64,000 nt of DNA, from contig NZ_CP035130.1 in NCBI RefSeq assembly GCF_004101785.1, forward strand, positions 620,001 through 684,000. The letters are read 5' to 3'. The position numbers were made by a program, and so were the translations under genes. The notes below the pieces were generated by a model. That model ran no database searches, had not been told where the DNA came from, and saw only the letters and a list, made by a program, of their open reading frames with translations. Source of the stretch: Gudongella oleilytica (GTDB lineage: Bacteria; Bacillota; Clostridia; Tissierellales; Tissierellaceae). Positions 35,050 to 50,766 of this stretch are shown here, piece after piece. The stretch's first letter is position 1. The number at the start of each line of letters is the position of its first letter.

Positions 35050-35079
35050 ATCGATAAAGCTTCTGCATTAACTTCAATG

Positions 35080-35114
35080 ACCCAGAGCTGACATTTGTCT
35101 TCTCTGGGTTTTCT
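35080..35114 (+). terminator. Terminator after the creatininase-family gene
   Basis: ACCCAGAG (35080-35087) pairs with CTCTGGGT (35102-35109), then TTTTCT. Confidence 0.75.
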
Positions 35115-35385
35115 CTGCCCCAACTGCCGTTGGAAAACTTCTTCAGGAAGGATCGGCTGATCTTATATGGGTGGGAAGAGCAGTATTAAAGTATTCTTCC
35201 TGGGCACGGCTCCTTCGCTGTCAATGCTTGAGAACCTGTCACTGGCTTATGGAAGAGTGGCAAAGGGTGCTTTTTCATGTACTAAAGAGGAAAGAAAGGA
35301 GTTTTCTCTCGAAAAACTGATGAAATTCTACAAAAGATCAAAAGGTAATGAGTTATCTGATGACAGGTTATTATTGTCCCAGTAA
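35111..35385 (+). pseudogene. Relic of an old-yellow-enzyme type flavin oxidoreductase (3' part)
   Basis: One frame from about 35111 reads VGKLLQEGSADLIWVGRAVL followed by KYSSWAR, matching the phosphate-binding strand of NADH:flavin oxidoreductases (LLxxGxADLIxxGRAxL...W). The rest seems to continue in another frame from 35167 (ENLSLAYGRVAKGAFSCTKEE) to 35385. No start, ribosome site or N-terminal barrel is present. It is best read as a decayed 3' fragment. The rest of the gap to 35597 shows nothing else I can name. Confidence 0.45.
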
Positions 35386-35597
35386 TCGATTAAATTCATC
35401 CAGCATTAATGACATAAGCCCATAAACCTCCATTTTGTAACATTTTATCCATATTTAATTTCTCGTTTTCTATTGTAGAAGGGGTGTATTTTTGATAATA
35501 TATTTATCGGTTAGACTATTATCAATATTACCATCGGTAGAGGGATCAACACCCGAAGCCCATAAAAATACAAGCATTACGAAAGGGAGAAGTGGAT

Positions 35598-36851
35598 ATG
35601 CCAAAAAGCAGAGCAGTCAGTGCAATAATAATGATCGTGATTTCAGCTTTAGTATTGTTCGCAGGAAATTCCATGATGGGTAAGGGGATGGCAGCAGGAC
35701 TTGCAGACGGTACATATCAGGGATTAAGTGATGCAGGAATGCATCCCGGCCTAATAGTAGAGGTAGTGGTGGCGGGTGAGCAGATAACTGATGTCAAGGT
35801 TCTTTCACATGGCGAGACTCCAGGGATAAGTGATCCGGCAATAGCAGAGATGCCCGCAAACATAATCGCAGCTCAATCAACAGAAATAGATGCAGTGTCA
35901 GGGGCAACTATGACTTCAAATGCTATCAAGGAAGCAGTTGCAAACGCCCTTGCAGCAGAACCGGGATACAAGGTGCCAGTTACATATGCTGACGGAACCT
36001 ATGAAGGCTCAAGCGACGCAGGAATGCACCCTGGCCTGAAGGTTTCAGTAGTGGTAACAGATGGCAGGATCTCAGAAGTAAAGGTGATCGCTCACGAAGA
36101 GACTCCGGGAATAAGCGATCCTGCAATATCTGGTGTACCTGCAGCAATAGTTGAGTCAGGCTCACCGGCAGTTGACGTCGTATCAGGAGCTACCTATACT
36201 TCTACAGCGATCATAGAAGCAGTTCAAAATGCATTGGCATCTGAGCCTGTTGGAGCGGAAGAGCCGGCAGAGGAGCCAGCAGAAGAGATCATACCGGCTG
36301 ACAGGGTATATGTCGACGGAGTTTATGAAGGCTCAAGCGATGCAGGGATGCACCCTGGCCTTAAGGTTTCAGTTGAGATAGCAGGTGGTAAAATAGCTGC
36401 TGTTAAGGTTATAGCTCATGACGAGACACCGGGGATCAGTGATCCGGCAATCTCTGGGATGCCTCAGGCAATCGTAGCAGCCAACACTCCAAGTGTTGAC
36501 GTAGTATCAGGAGCAACCTATACATCTATGGCCATAAAAGAAGCGGTTACTCTTGCACTTGAGGGAGCAGTAGCACCTACAGTATATGTCGACGGGGTCT
36601 ATGAAGGCTCAAGTGATGCAGGAATGCACCCGGGTCTAAAGGTATCCGTTGAGGTAGTTGACGGAAAGATAGCAAGTGTTAAGGTCATCGCCCATGAGGA
36701 GACAGAAGGTATTTCAGATCCTGCTATAGCTGGAGTTCCAGCTGCCATAGTGGAAGCCAACTCACCTGAGGTAGATGGAGTATCTGGAGCGACCTACACT
36801 TCAATGGCAATCAAGGAAGCTGTAGCCCTGGCACTCCAAAACGCGAAATAA
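35598..36851 (+). CDS. Exported protein with four tandem FMN-binding domains
   Basis: Protein of 417 residues: one N-terminal membrane segment (residues about 7-24, no lipobox), then four FMN_bind domains of 90-105 residues. Each begins DGxYxGxSDAGMHPGL and ends with the flavinylation motif SGATxTS at residues 101, 196, 304 and 396, where ApbE attaches FMN to the Thr in NqrC/RnfG/PplA-type proteins. An acidic linker EEPAEEPAEE separates domains 2 and 3. Nearly identical DNA at the domain starts (36004, 36326, 36601) shows recent tandem duplication. Likely role: an outer-surface electron carrier. No apbE or membrane reductase gene is in the window. ATG at 35598 chosen over GTG at 35592. Confidence 0.88.
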   Translation: MPKSRAVSAIIMIVISALVLFAGNSMMGKGMAAGLADGTYQGLSDAGMHPGLIVEVVVAGEQITDVKVLSHGETPGISDPAIAEMPANIIAAQSTEIDAVSGATMTSNAIKEAVANALAAEPGYKVPVTYADGTYEGSSDAGMHPGLKVSVVVTDGRISEVKVIAHEETPGISDPAISGVPAAIVESGSPAVDVVSGATYTSTAIIEAVQNALASEPVGAEEPAEEPAEEIIPADRVYVDGVYEGSSDAGMHPGLKVSVEIAGGKIAAVKVIAHDETPGISDPAISGMPQAIVAANTPSVDVVSGATYTSMAIKEAVTLALEGAVAPTVYVDGVYEGSSDAGMHPGLKVSVEVVDGKIASVKVIAHEETEGISDPAIAGVPAAIVEANSPEVDGVSGATYTSMAIKEAVALALQNAK

Positions 36852-36864
36852 CATTGAAATTAAG

Positions 36865-36900
36865 CCCGGAATCGAAATATATCGGTTCCGGGTATTTATT
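36865..36900 (+). terminator. Terminator after the FMN-binding gene
   Basis: CCCGGAATCGA (36865-36875) pairs with TCGGTTCCGGG (36882-36892) with one mismatch, followed by TATTTATTT. The following leader to 37054 contains TATTCAC repeated three times but no clear promoter. Confidence 0.8.
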
Positions 36901-47203: not shown

Positions 47204-48940
47204 TTACTTCTTGGTGGGATCAAGCTCCCAGGCATGATGGTCAGTGTGTAAGAGCTCATGTGATTTGTGGGAAAGAGGACTTCCAAAGAATTCATCATAA
47301 ACCTTTGTGATCGATGGGTTCTCATGGGAGAATCTCAGGTTGCTGATCTGATCCAAGCCATAGAGGACCTCAGCCCTTTTCTCAGCAAGCTCCTTACCGT
47401 CCCATATAGGCTGTCCGCCGCCACCGGCGCAGCCGCCTGGGCAAGCCATTATCTCGACGAAATGATACTCTACTTCGCCTCGTCTAATGGCCTCTATCAG
47501 TCTTCTGGTGTTTCCAAGACCGCTTGCAACCGCCACCTTAAGGGTAGTGCCAGCTATGTCAAAGCTTGCTTCCTTCCAGCCCTTTCTGCCGCGTACATCC
47601 TTAAAGGCGTCCGGAGCAGGGTTCTCGCCTGTTACAAGGAAGTAGGCACTTCTTAGAGCGGCCTCCATAACTCCGCCTGTAGCTCCGAATATTACAGCAG
47701 CACCTGAACCTATTCCAAGAGGGGTATCCAGTGGCTCCTCGTCGAGGTATTTGACTGTGATATGCTCAGACCTTATAAGTCTTTCCACCTCACGGGTCGT
47801 AAGTACTACATCTACGTCTTGACCTGCACCGGCGTCGCTTAGTACAGGAACACCAGCCTCATATTTCTTTGCAGTACAAGGCATTATGGAAACGCTGAAG
47901 ATCTTTGACGGATCAACATTTAAAAGCTTGGCATAGTAGCTCTTGGCTATTGCACCAAACATCTGCTGTGGCGACTTCGCCGTTGAAAGCTGATCGACCA
48001 TATCCGGGTACTGGGTCTTTATGAATCTGATCCAGCCCGGGCAGCAGGAGGTAAACATTGGGAAGGTCTCGTTATCTGCATTCTTAAGTCTCTCAAGGAA
48101 TTCACTTCCTTCCTCCATAATAGTAAGGTCAGCAGTGAAGTTTGTATCGAAGATATAGTCAAAGCCTACTCTTCTAAGAGCTGCAGCAAGCCTTTCGACC
48201 GTCGCAAACTCCCTTGAAAGTCCAAGGCCTTCGCCCCAGGCCGCACGAACAGCAGGAGCTATTTGGACTATCGTAACCTTGTCCTTATCAGCAAGAGCTT
48301 CGAACACCTTATCGGTGTCGTCTCTTTCTCTTAGAGCTCCAACCGGACAGTGGGTTATGCACTGGCCGCAAAGGGCACAGTCGGATTCTTCGATCCTTCT
48401 GTTATGCGATACGTCTACGTTAGTTCTCGAACCGGTGTTGGCAACATCCCAAACCTTAAGGCTTTGTACATGGTCGCACACCTGGATGCATCTCATACAC
48501 TTTATACACTTCTCATAATCCCTTACAAGCGGGAAGCCTTCAGTCCAGCGGGCATGAGGCATTTCAAGCTTAAAGGGACTTTCTATTATATTCAGATCAT
48601 TTGCTATTGTCTGAAGGCTGCAGTTGCCGCTTCTAACACAAGTGGTGCAGGTCGCATCGTGCTGTGAAAGTATAAGCTCGACGTTGTTCCTTCTTGCATT
48701 TCTTACCTTGGGGCTATTGGTGTGTATTACCATGCCCTCTTCAACAGTATTGTTACAGGAGGTGACCAGTCTTTCAACTCCTTCGACCTCCACAACACAT
48801 ACTCTGCAGGCACCGATCTCGTTAAGACCCTCAAGATAGCAAAGGTTAGGGATATCGATATGGCATTTCTTAGCCGCATCCAGAATTGTAGTACCTTCCG
48901 GTACAGTGACAGCTATGTTGTTAATAACCAGATTTACCAT
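47204..48940 (-). CDS. hydA: [FeFe]-hydrogenase catalytic subunit
   Basis: Group A [FeFe]-hydrogenase of 578 residues. N-terminal 2Fe-2S domain (NLCYLEGLNEIGACRVC and TSCNN), a His/Cys 4Fe-4S site (HDATCTTCVRSGNC), two 4Fe-4S ferredoxin motifs (CIKCMRCIQVC; CALCGQCITHCPVGAL), then the H-cluster domain with TSCCPGW (P1), MPCTAKK (P2) and MACPGGCAGGGGQP (P3), and a small-subunit-like tail (FFGSPLSHKSHELLHT). All H-cluster ligands are present, so it should be active. Overlaps the upstream NuoF/GltD fusion gene by 7 bp; it likely takes electrons from NAD(P)H and ferredoxin. Confidence 0.95.
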   Translation of the reverse strand: MVNLVINNIAVTVPEGTTILDAAKKCHIDIPNLCYLEGLNEIGACRVCVVEVEGVERLVTSCNNTVEEGMVIHTNSPKVRNARRNNVELILSQHDATCTTCVRSGNCSLQTIANDLNIIESPFKLEMPHARWTEGFPLVRDYEKCIKCMRCIQVCDHVQSLKVWDVANTGSRTNVDVSHNRRIEESDCALCGQCITHCPVGALRERDDTDKVFEALADKDKVTIVQIAPAVRAAWGEGLGLSREFATVERLAAALRRVGFDYIFDTNFTADLTIMEEGSEFLERLKNADNETFPMFTSCCPGWIRFIKTQYPDMVDQLSTAKSPQQMFGAIAKSYYAKLLNVDPSKIFSVSIMPCTAKKYEAGVPVLSDAGAGQDVDVVLTTREVERLIRSEHITVKYLDEEPLDTPLGIGSGAAVIFGATGGVMEAALRSAYFLVTGENPAPDAFKDVRGRKGWKEASFDIAGTTLKVAVASGLGNTRRLIEAIRRGEVEYHFVEIMACPGGCAGGGGQPIWDGKELAEKRAEVLYGLDQISNLRFSHENPSITKVYDEFFGSPLSHKSHELLHTDHHAWELDPTKK

Positions 48941-50766
48941 CTTTCGATCCTCCCTCCCTTGAATACTCCAAAGCCGAAGTGGTCACATCTTAAGCAGCGT
49001 CTCGACTCCTGCATAGCCTCCTGGTCACTCATGCCAAGCTCGGAAAGCTCAAAGTCGTCTGACCTCTCCTCAACAGGTCTTTCCTTCATATTGACCCTGC
49101 CGCAAGGCACTCTGTCAGCTATCCTCGGCTCGGGTACTTTGACCTCCGCAACTATCTCATGATGGAAGCCAAGATAATTGTCAATATTAGCAGCTGCAAC
49201 CTTGCCAGCTGAAATCGCCTGGATTACAGTAGCAGGACCTGATATACAGTCTCCGCCCGAATACACATCAGGCATTCCAACTACACCGGCAGTATTAAGA
49301 GCATCTATAAGGCCCCTTCTTACGGGGATCCCTTCCTTCTCGAATTCCTTGGATTCAATACCCTGACCTATGGCTATTACGACAACATCGCAGGGGATCC
49401 TTACAGGAGCTTCCTTGGCATCCACAGCCTTTGGCCTCCCGCCATCGATCTGTCCTACGATCTGCGGCTGGACCCAAAGAGCAGTAACCCTGCCATCGTC
49501 ATCCGTTTCGATCCTCTTGGGACTGTAAAGCTCATAGATCTCGCAGCCCTCTGCTACTGCTGCTTCTATTTCTTCCTTCATTGCAGGCATATCAGCCTTT
49601 CTTCTTCTGTATACTATATCAGAGCTTTCTGCCCCCAGTCTTACGGCTGATCTTGCCACGTCGATCGCTACGTTTCCGCCTCCAAGAACGACCACTCTTT
49701 TTCCCTTCAGTTCAGGATAATATCCGTCGCCTGCATCACGAAGGATATCAACGGCAGAGTAAACTCCCTCGGCATCCTCGTTCTCAAGACCTATCTTCTT
49801 GTCGGTTTGAGCCCCTATAGCTATGTATATGCTGTCGAACTTTTCCTTAAGATCCATTACTGACATATCCTTACCTATAGTAACTCCAAGGTGGACCTTC
49901 ACTCCATGGGAGAGCATTGTCCCGATCTCCTGATCAAGTATCTCGCGGGGCAGACGATAGCTTGGGATCCCATAACGGAGCATTCCGCCCAGGTGTTTCT
50001 TCTGCTCATATATCTCGACCTCGTGACCCATAAGGGTAAGGTAATATGCTGCACTCAATCCGCTTGGACCTCCCCCGACGACAGCGACCTTCTTGCCGGT
50101 AAGGGGAGCCCTTTCAGGCAGCGGTATATTACCGGAATTTTCAACCGCATATCTCTTAAGACCCCTGATATTGATCGGGTCATCGACCATGTTTCTTCTG
50201 CACCTTGTCTCACAGGGATGCTCGCAAACGAATGCGCAGGTAGCAGGCATCGGGTTGTCCTTCCTGATAAGCCTTATTGCATCCTCGTTTCTGCCCTCAG
50301 CAATAAGGGCTATGTAGCCAGGAACGTCAACACCTGCAGGACACAGAGAAACGCAAGGAACTGACTGGTAGATACCGAAGTTGCAGCGGTTCCTAAGTAT
50401 ATGCTCCTCGTAGTCATCTCTGAAGCCCTCGATCCCCTTAAGGACCATGTTTGCAGCCTCATATCCGATAGCACAATCAGCTGTGTAATAAATGCTCCGG
50501 GCTGTCTTTTCAATAAAGTCGATAGTCTCCATAGTTGCCTTCCCGTCAAGCACATCTTCCAACAGATTCTCAAGCTGTCCAAGGCCTATCCTGCAGGGCA
50601 CGCACTTGCCGCAGGTCTGGGCATGGGCCATCTTCAGGAACGAGGAAGCAAGGTCGATAGGGCACAAGCCCGGTGGAGAAGCTACTATACGCCTCTCAAG
50701 ATCCTTATACATCTCCTCAACAGTGGCCTGAGCCATATCCTTGGTGATGATACTAAGTCTGCTCAA
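48934..50766 (-). CDS. NuoF C-terminal domain fused to GltD-like NAD(P)/FAD oxidoreductase
   Basis: Electron-transfer flavoprotein of 610 residues. Residues about 30-125 are the 4Fe-4S-binding end of NuoF/HydB (CGKCVPCRIGLGQLENLL, then YYTADCAIGYEA) but the FMN/NADH part is absent. Residues about 135-600 are a GltD/NfnB-type module: 4Fe-4S cysteines (SLCPAGVDVPGYI; CEHPCETRCRR), FAD GGGPSGLSAAYYL near 230, NAD(P) GGGNVAIDVARS near 368, FAD closing YSGGDCISGPATV, and a terminal RRCLRCDHFG. TTG start behind AAAGGAG. It is co-transcribed with hydA, so I infer an NAD(P)H-dependent, possibly bifurcating hydrogenase partner. Confidence 0.88.
   Translation of the reverse strand: MSRLSIITKDMAQATVEEMYKDLERRIVASPPGLCPIDLASSFLKMAHAQTCGKCVPCRIGLGQLENLLEDVLDGKATMETIDFIEKTARSIYYTADCAIGYEAANMVLKGIEGFRDDYEEHILRNRCNFGIYQSVPCVSLCPAGVDVPGYIALIAEGRNEDAIRLIRKDNPMPATCAFVCEHPCETRCRRNMVDDPINIRGLKRYAVENSGNIPLPERAPLTGKKVAVVGGGPSGLSAAYYLTLMGHEVEIYEQKKHLGGMLRYGIPSYRLPREILDQEIGTMLSHGVKVHLGVTIGKDMSVMDLKEKFDSIYIAIGAQTDKKIGLENEDAEGVYSAVDILRDAGDGYYPELKGKRVVVLGGGNVAIDVARSAVRLGAESSDIVYRRRKADMPAMKEEIEAAVAEGCEIYELYSPKRIETDDDGRVTALWVQPQIVGQIDGGRPKAVDAKEAPVRIPCDVVVIAIGQGIESKEFEKEGIPVRRGLIDALNTAGVVGMPDVYSGGDCISGPATVIQAISAGKVAAANIDNYLGFHHEIVAEVKVPEPRIADRVPCGRVNMKERPVEERSDDFELSELGMSDQEAMQESRRCLRCDHFGFGVFKGGRIERW

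Follow-up and report, generated by a model that had tools for sequence, protein, structure and literature searches.

Multi-flavinylated proteins, which contain more than one FMN-binding domain, were described in 2021 by Meheust et al., who reported 2081 of them with as many as 13 sites, notably among Gram-positives (PMC8238504). They are described as common and of unclear function (PMC8238504 and PMC11334425), and beads-on-a-string models have been presented (PMC11334425). In 2023, CbFMN4, a four-domain protein with four FMN sites from a Clostridiaceae bacterium, was purified and studied together with SaFMN3, which has three sites (PMC10339131). In that report, mass measurements on recombinant SaFMN3 indicated three covalently attached FMN, the protein had one redox potential (-184 mV), and oxygen reacted with its reduced form at a rate of 1.2 per s; the mass of full-length CbFMN4 was not measurable, and full occupancy of the four domains is unproven even there. 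PplA of Listeria is another flavinylated electron-transfer protein of the envelope (PMC12052999, in part), and RnfG and NqrC contain a related FMN_bind domain with a flavinylation motif.

In the present study, we analysed a window of 64,000 nucleotides (positions 620001-684000 of a 2.36-Mb contig) and found a 417-aa open reading frame that encodes four FMN_bind modules of the FMN-bind1 type (hereafter, the array). Like the class described by Meheust et al., its product has more than one FMN-binding domain and the [ST]GA[ST] motif and is probably extracytosolic. It resembles CbFMN4 (PDB 8p2b) in its four FMN-binding domains, a putative N-terminal segment for secretion or membrane attachment, a DxxxGAT-type motif, and flexible linkers; however, the identity in the structural match is only 32% (VIA) to 43% (Foldseek). 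The array in its proposed role resembles PplA in kind, and differs from RnfG and NqrC in having four modules and in lying outside any rnf or nqr operon. It also has no linked electron-transfer gene cluster, unlike the proteins treated in the cited parts of PMC8238504 and PMC11334425. Identification as PplA (NF041941, 17.7 bits versus a cut-off of 325), RnfG (TIGR01947, 79.4 versus 102), or NqrC (TIGR01938, 38.6 versus 144) was rejected. In the literature searched (titles and the beginnings of abstracts, with supplementary tables outside the search), we found no array from this genus. The first-pass annotation had held that the flavinylated carriers known from Bacillota bear one or two such sites, which the 13 sites and the clostridial four-domain protein cited above contradict. 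The array is thus an ordinary, well-formed example of a described class, and not a new kind of system.

The gene, its modules and the predicted fold

The features are listed in Table 1. The encoded protein has a theoretical mass of 41.7 kDa and a pI of 4.3. The hairpin behind the stop codon has a calculated energy of -21.2 kcal/mol (z -4.40; none of 200 shuffles was as good), and was judged from its position and energy and not from the frequency of terminator-like sites, of which the scan found one versus 1.3 expected from shuffles, that is, no excess. No promoter-like site was found on the plus strand in the stretch scanned upstream (35050-35598). The gene may well form a transcription unit of its own. 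Its neighbours encode an amino-acid-type ABC transporter, a creatininase-like hydrolase, and a methionine gamma-lyase, and no membrane electron-transfer gene was found among the neighbouring open reading frames scanned, so that there is no operon clue to a donor or acceptor. A universal stress protein gene (Pfam) lies 2.8 kb downstream, and a protein of similar appearance by eye adjoins the array gene in two other genomes of the genus (G001 and G002); none was seen on the 6.6-kb contig of the third (G003).

Table 1. Features of the array gene and of related genes in the same genome (window, position within the 64,000 nucleotides; genome, genomic or locus coordinates)
Feature	Reference	Position	Strand	Remarks
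Putative ribosome-binding-like stretch	window	35582..35589	+	AAAGGGAG; 8 nt before ATG; read from the sequence
Array gene	window	35598-36851	+	417 aa; start ATG 35598
N-terminal hydrophobic helix	window	35598..35672	+	aa 1-25; candidate signal peptide or membrane anchor
Module 1	window	35706..35951	+	aa 37-118; predicted flavinylated Thr104, codon 35907-35909
Module 2	window	35991..36236	+	aa 132-213; predicted flavinylated Thr199, codon 36192-36194
Long acidic linker, modules 2-3	window	36237..36314	+	aa 214-239 (26 aa); net charge -7; pLDDT <50 at aa 220-233
Module 3	window	36315..36560	+	aa 240-321; predicted flavinylated Thr307, codon 36516-36518
Module 4	window	36591..36836	+	aa 332-413; predicted flavinylated Thr399, codon 36792-36794
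Intrinsic-terminator-like hairpin	window	36864..36893	+	12 nt past stop codon; 12 pairs, ATTTATTTGC tail
NADH-dependent [FeFe] hydrogenase (group A6) and NAD(P)-binding flavoprotein	window	about 47204-50766	-	flavoprotein with NuoF-type Fe-S region
apbE	genome	1969566-1970450		sole genome match, E 3.8e-60
rnfG	genome	1421901-1422479		one FMN_bind; 109.6 bits, cut-off 102
Second RnfG/NqrC-like protein	genome	cluster 1044813-1048703		96.8 bits; with RnfD and an NADH-binding NqrF-like protein
Flavocytochrome c/fumarate-reductase-like FMN_bind protein	genome	1872975-1874918
FMN_bind-rhodanese fusion	genome	260057-261250		lipobox-like start; followed by cytochrome-c-family protein and ResB (the three genes together, L013:5058-8989)
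NapH-like FMN_bind protein and FMN_bind/molybdopterin-domain-like protein	genome	1583896-1586642		side by side
Single-module FMN_bind gene	genome	L018:5276-5684 (G000:C1 near 820481)		in-frame stop at module start (by eye)

A Pfam search gave four FMN_bind (PF04205) stretches in the protein (E 3.9e-68 and 226.5 bits for the whole protein, cut-off 22), and the module boundaries in Table 1 follow a fixed register. All four modules contain SGAT-x-TS (SGATMTS once, SGATYTS three times), as had been noticed at the outset, and so each has the [ST]GA[ST]-like motif expected of multi-flavinylated FMN-bind1 proteins. The longer form D-x-x-SGAT-x-TS is present in all 17 modules of the four genus genomes, the window's included, with sequences that differ by up to 40%. 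Because every module has this motif, FMN attachment is predicted at Thr104, Thr199, Thr307, and Thr399. The first suggestion of one polypeptide with four modules for covalent FMN therefore holds as a prediction, with four intact sites in a protein that is probably exported.

Amino-acid identity among the modules of the window's gene is 65-83%, compared with more than 80% between the domains of CbFMN4 as given in PMC10339131 (in part); module 1 is the most divergent (65-66% to the others). In the DNA, the modules appear as four repeat copies of 254 nt, three of which are 64-73% identical to the reference copy. The similarity of the module starts pointed out by the first-pass annotation was confirmed: the first 41 nt of modules 2-4 are 88-90% identical versus 56-73% in the remaining sixths. 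The linkers between modules are 13, 26, and 10 aa long. In all four genus proteins, no linker is longer than the one that joins modules 2 and 3, and in three of them (not in G003) it is also the most acidic, which suggests a hinge that would divide the modules into two groups.

The AlphaFold2 model, which was built from seven alignment rows, consists of four modules, each beta-beta-beta-alpha-alpha, within which pLDDT is mostly 75-89; the model has a mean pLDDT of 77.7 and a pTM of 0.31, and packing between modules is given without confidence; the beads-on-a-string models in the available part of PMC11334425 are alike in this respect. Foldseek gave three matches at E <=0.001, namely both chains of 8p2b and 8p2a. 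The 8p2b structure (CbFMN4 domain 1) was matched with E 1.4e-13 by phmmer and E 3.9e-06 by Foldseek. In VIA-align, where each row covers a single module, in most cases module 4, the scores were Z 14.2 for 8p2b_A (rmsd 1.5 over 83 residues), 13.7 for 8p2a (SaFMN3 domain 2), and 10.5 for 3o6u. Rows for RnfG, NqrC, and IscU fall at Z 7-8, for which the tool gives a warning; sequence matches were also obtained for RnfG and NqrC, and IscU was not among them. The modules, as modelled, have the FMN-bind1 fold. From the alignment and by eye, every one of the four modules has Thr, Ile, Thr, and Thr in place of the flavin-holding Thr37, Leu40, Thr67, and Ser69 of CbFMN4, whereas its flavin-stacking Tyr11 corresponds to Met when the alignment is extrapolated by two residues.

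A hydrophobic N-terminal segment is present in all four genus proteins, with a Kyte-Doolittle maximum of 2.35 in the window's protein and of 2.35-2.73 across the four, and the model has a helix at aa 3-25, where pLDDT is only 44-60. The 417-aa protein contains no Cys, lipobox, or LPXTG, its Pfam match list includes no SLH domain, and no cell-wall anchor was found in its sequence. The protein had at first been called a surface protein, for which this hydrophobic helix is the only feature found. To judge from this segment, the protein is probably exported and perhaps anchored in the membrane.

Flavin transferase, candidate donors and other FMN_bind genes

The first-pass annotation had also noted that no ApbE or quinone/NADH reductase partner lies in the window, and had proposed a search of the rest of the genome. 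As for ApbE, this is correct: the only match in the genome is outside the window and far from the array gene. A genome devoid of ApbE had been named as grounds for discarding the first-pass reading, and this match removes that objection. As for a reductase, the window does encode an NADH-dependent [FeFe] hydrogenase and an NAD(P)-binding Fe-S flavoprotein; by their families, both look cytosolic. The genome also has two genes of the NQR2/RnfD family (RnfD/NqrB) within RNF/NQR-like clusters, each beside an RnfG-type FMN_bind protein, one of which scores above the rnfG cut-off and the other just below (Table 1). In the cluster with the lower-scoring protein, RnfE- and RnfA-like genes were named by eye only. 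The array gene is not linked to apbE or to any RNF gene in the genome. With a single apbE and the two RnfD/NqrB-family genes present elsewhere in the genome, it is plausible that the array is flavinylated and supplied with electrons in trans.

ApbE has a lipoprotein-like start with a lipobox-like VVSGC (by eye), and its gene is present in all four genus genomes. In each of them it adjoins a gene for a lipoprotein-like protein (the pair lies at L019:6480-8755, minus strand, in the window's genome). There, this protein has 368 aa, contains two repeats, each about 160 aa long and with DLVSSVT at the end, and reaches no Pfam cut-off; we infer that it fits the description of FMN-bind2 in the part of PMC11334425 referred to here.

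Genome-wide, there are 11 FMN_bind matches in eight genes, four in the array gene and one in each of the seven others. The cytochrome-c-family protein that follows the FMN_bind-rhodanese gene has Cytochrome_C7/c3 matches. The NapH-like and molybdopterin-domain-like pair lies in a cluster (L016:4282-14440, minus strand) with more molybdopterin-domain-like proteins, part of an ABC_cobalt-type transporter, and a 1311-aa SLH protein; judging from these genes, the cluster is a putative envelope redox or uptake system. The single-module gene at L018 is probably a pseudogene in the window's genome; in G001, G002, and G003, matches with similar scores have open frames of 142, 140, and 134 aa, respectively.

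Distribution and history of the array

We searched 60 genomes, including the window's own, and 50 had a match to the 417-aa protein. Full-length relatives with 65-70% identity occur in all three other members of the genus. The arrays have four modules in the window's genome and four, five, and four in G001, G002, and G003, respectively, the latter being fragmented assemblies in which short-read assembly can collapse such repeats. PF04205 was found in all 28 genomes of the family searched, and frames with at least three matches (counted by eye) in five of them, that is, in the four genus members and in G009, which has three. In 11 other genomes of the family, a gene (L053-L063) shares the array's module with 50-66% identity, but has one module each. 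All nine of these genes that were inspected by eye have a lipobox-like start. In six of the 11 loci, apbE lies within 3 kb of the one-module gene; it is absent from the L053, L057, L058, and L063 stretches, and the L062 contig ends soon after the gene.

Three loci from Lachnospiraceae/Eubacteriales (L075:3289-5789, L076:5740-8298, and L078:3077-5595) have a five-module gene followed directly by a one-module gene, and two Clostridia MAGs have pairs of multi-module genes in opposite orientation (L072:1376-5046, five and four modules; L073:4381-7419, three and four). In a three-module gene at L077:5947-6996, modules 2 and 3 do not differ in the columns kept for the tree, and the last motif is AGCT instead of SGAT.

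The module tree has 99 rows and places all 17 modules of the arrays in a single clade (98, starred), and modules 1 and modules 3 of G001 and G002 form groups with values of 98 and 96; with 81 columns for 99 rows and 40 of 95 inner branches open, only these groupings were relied on. The tree omits duplicate genes from overlapping loci, modules shorter than 65 aa (L018 and L075:6783), the modules of L054, L061, and L065, which were lost to antisense frames in the filtering of open reading frames, and the RnfG-type modules, which the module profile did not pick up. As modules 1 and 3 of G001 and G002 are orthologous, their array predates the split between these two genomes. The fifth module of G002 is nearest to the fourth of the same genome (93% amino-acid identity). 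Between G001 and G002, dN is 0.06-0.12 and dS is 0.75-1.65 in all five module pairings; the low dN relative to dS indicates purifying selection.

The likeness of the module starts had been taken as a sign of recent expansion. This could not be upheld for the window's genome: in the codons after the 19th, modules 2-4 of the window's gene are identical at synonymous sites in 52/140 comparisons (0.37), versus 0.38 expected from the codon usage of the gene, so that synonymous sites are saturated; the array is present in all four genus genomes, and the module tree agrees. In codons 1-19, the value is 32/52 (0.62), with a codon-shuffle p of 0.015 that is weak because the boundary was set at codon 19 with the DNA identities already in view; this is a hint of short-tract homogenisation, at most. 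Modules 2-4 of G003 resemble one another more closely at synonymous sites than modules from different species do; homogenisation, or a later duplication in the lineage of G003, would be expected to leave such a pattern.

Proposed role and alternatives

We consider it likely that the array is an exported multi-flavinylated FMN-bind1 protein, membrane-tethered or secreted, whose four FMN are loaded by ApbE and relay electrons from the outside of the membrane to acceptors that lie within the wall or further out. After export, the single ApbE of the genome would move FMN from FAD to the four predicted threonines, which would result in four FMN on nearly equivalent, flexibly linked domains. Electrons would enter at the outward-facing side of the membrane, where the likeliest donor may be the RnfG-type FMN of an RNF/NQR-like complex, and would be passed on to those acceptors. 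The transfer would occur more by swinging and collision of domains than along a rigid wire. A related Tissierellaceae isolate is reported to reduce indigo in its insoluble form, and perhaps iron oxide as well (PMC12501876), with which an extracellular role of the array would be compatible by analogy.

The first-pass annotation had likened the four FMN to a flavin wire. In a true wire, the modules would be packed and electrons would hop from flavin to flavin, as in multi-haem cytochromes. Four equivalent sites in a row would suit this arrangement, and transfer over longer distances has been proposed for the class (PMC8238504 and PMC11334425, each in part). However, the linkers, above all the middle one with its charge of -7 and its stretch of pLDDT below 50, the pTM of 0.31, and the lack of confident packing between domains speak against it, and the single redox potential reported for SaFMN3 would provide no downhill direction (PMC10339131, in part); we regard a true wire as unlikely. 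Quite unlikely, too, is a genus-specific adjustable flavin array, in which a module pair, a long hinge, and two or three further modules make up a length that varies (4, 4, 5, and 4), short gene-conversion tracts keep the module starts alike, and the whole serves extracellular reduction by complementing or replacing haem-based conduits across the cell wall.

The four flavins could also hold up to eight electrons, as a store for bursts or as a sink for oxygen or radicals that protects the anaerobe. The reaction of reduced SaFMN3 with oxygen and the stress protein gene downstream of the array point in this direction, but that rate is modest and the stress protein is a mere association seen in three of the four genomes, and we find such a role improbable. 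It is very improbable that the array is only partly flavinylated or that its modules are mainly binding or spacer domains: the flavin sites are predictions from sequence, and module 1 is the most divergent, yet the motif is intact in every one of the 17 modules despite their divergence.

The genus series of arrays with four, four, five, and four modules, together with the one-module proteins of related genera, constitutes a natural set of otherwise comparable proteins for relating module number to electron transfer.
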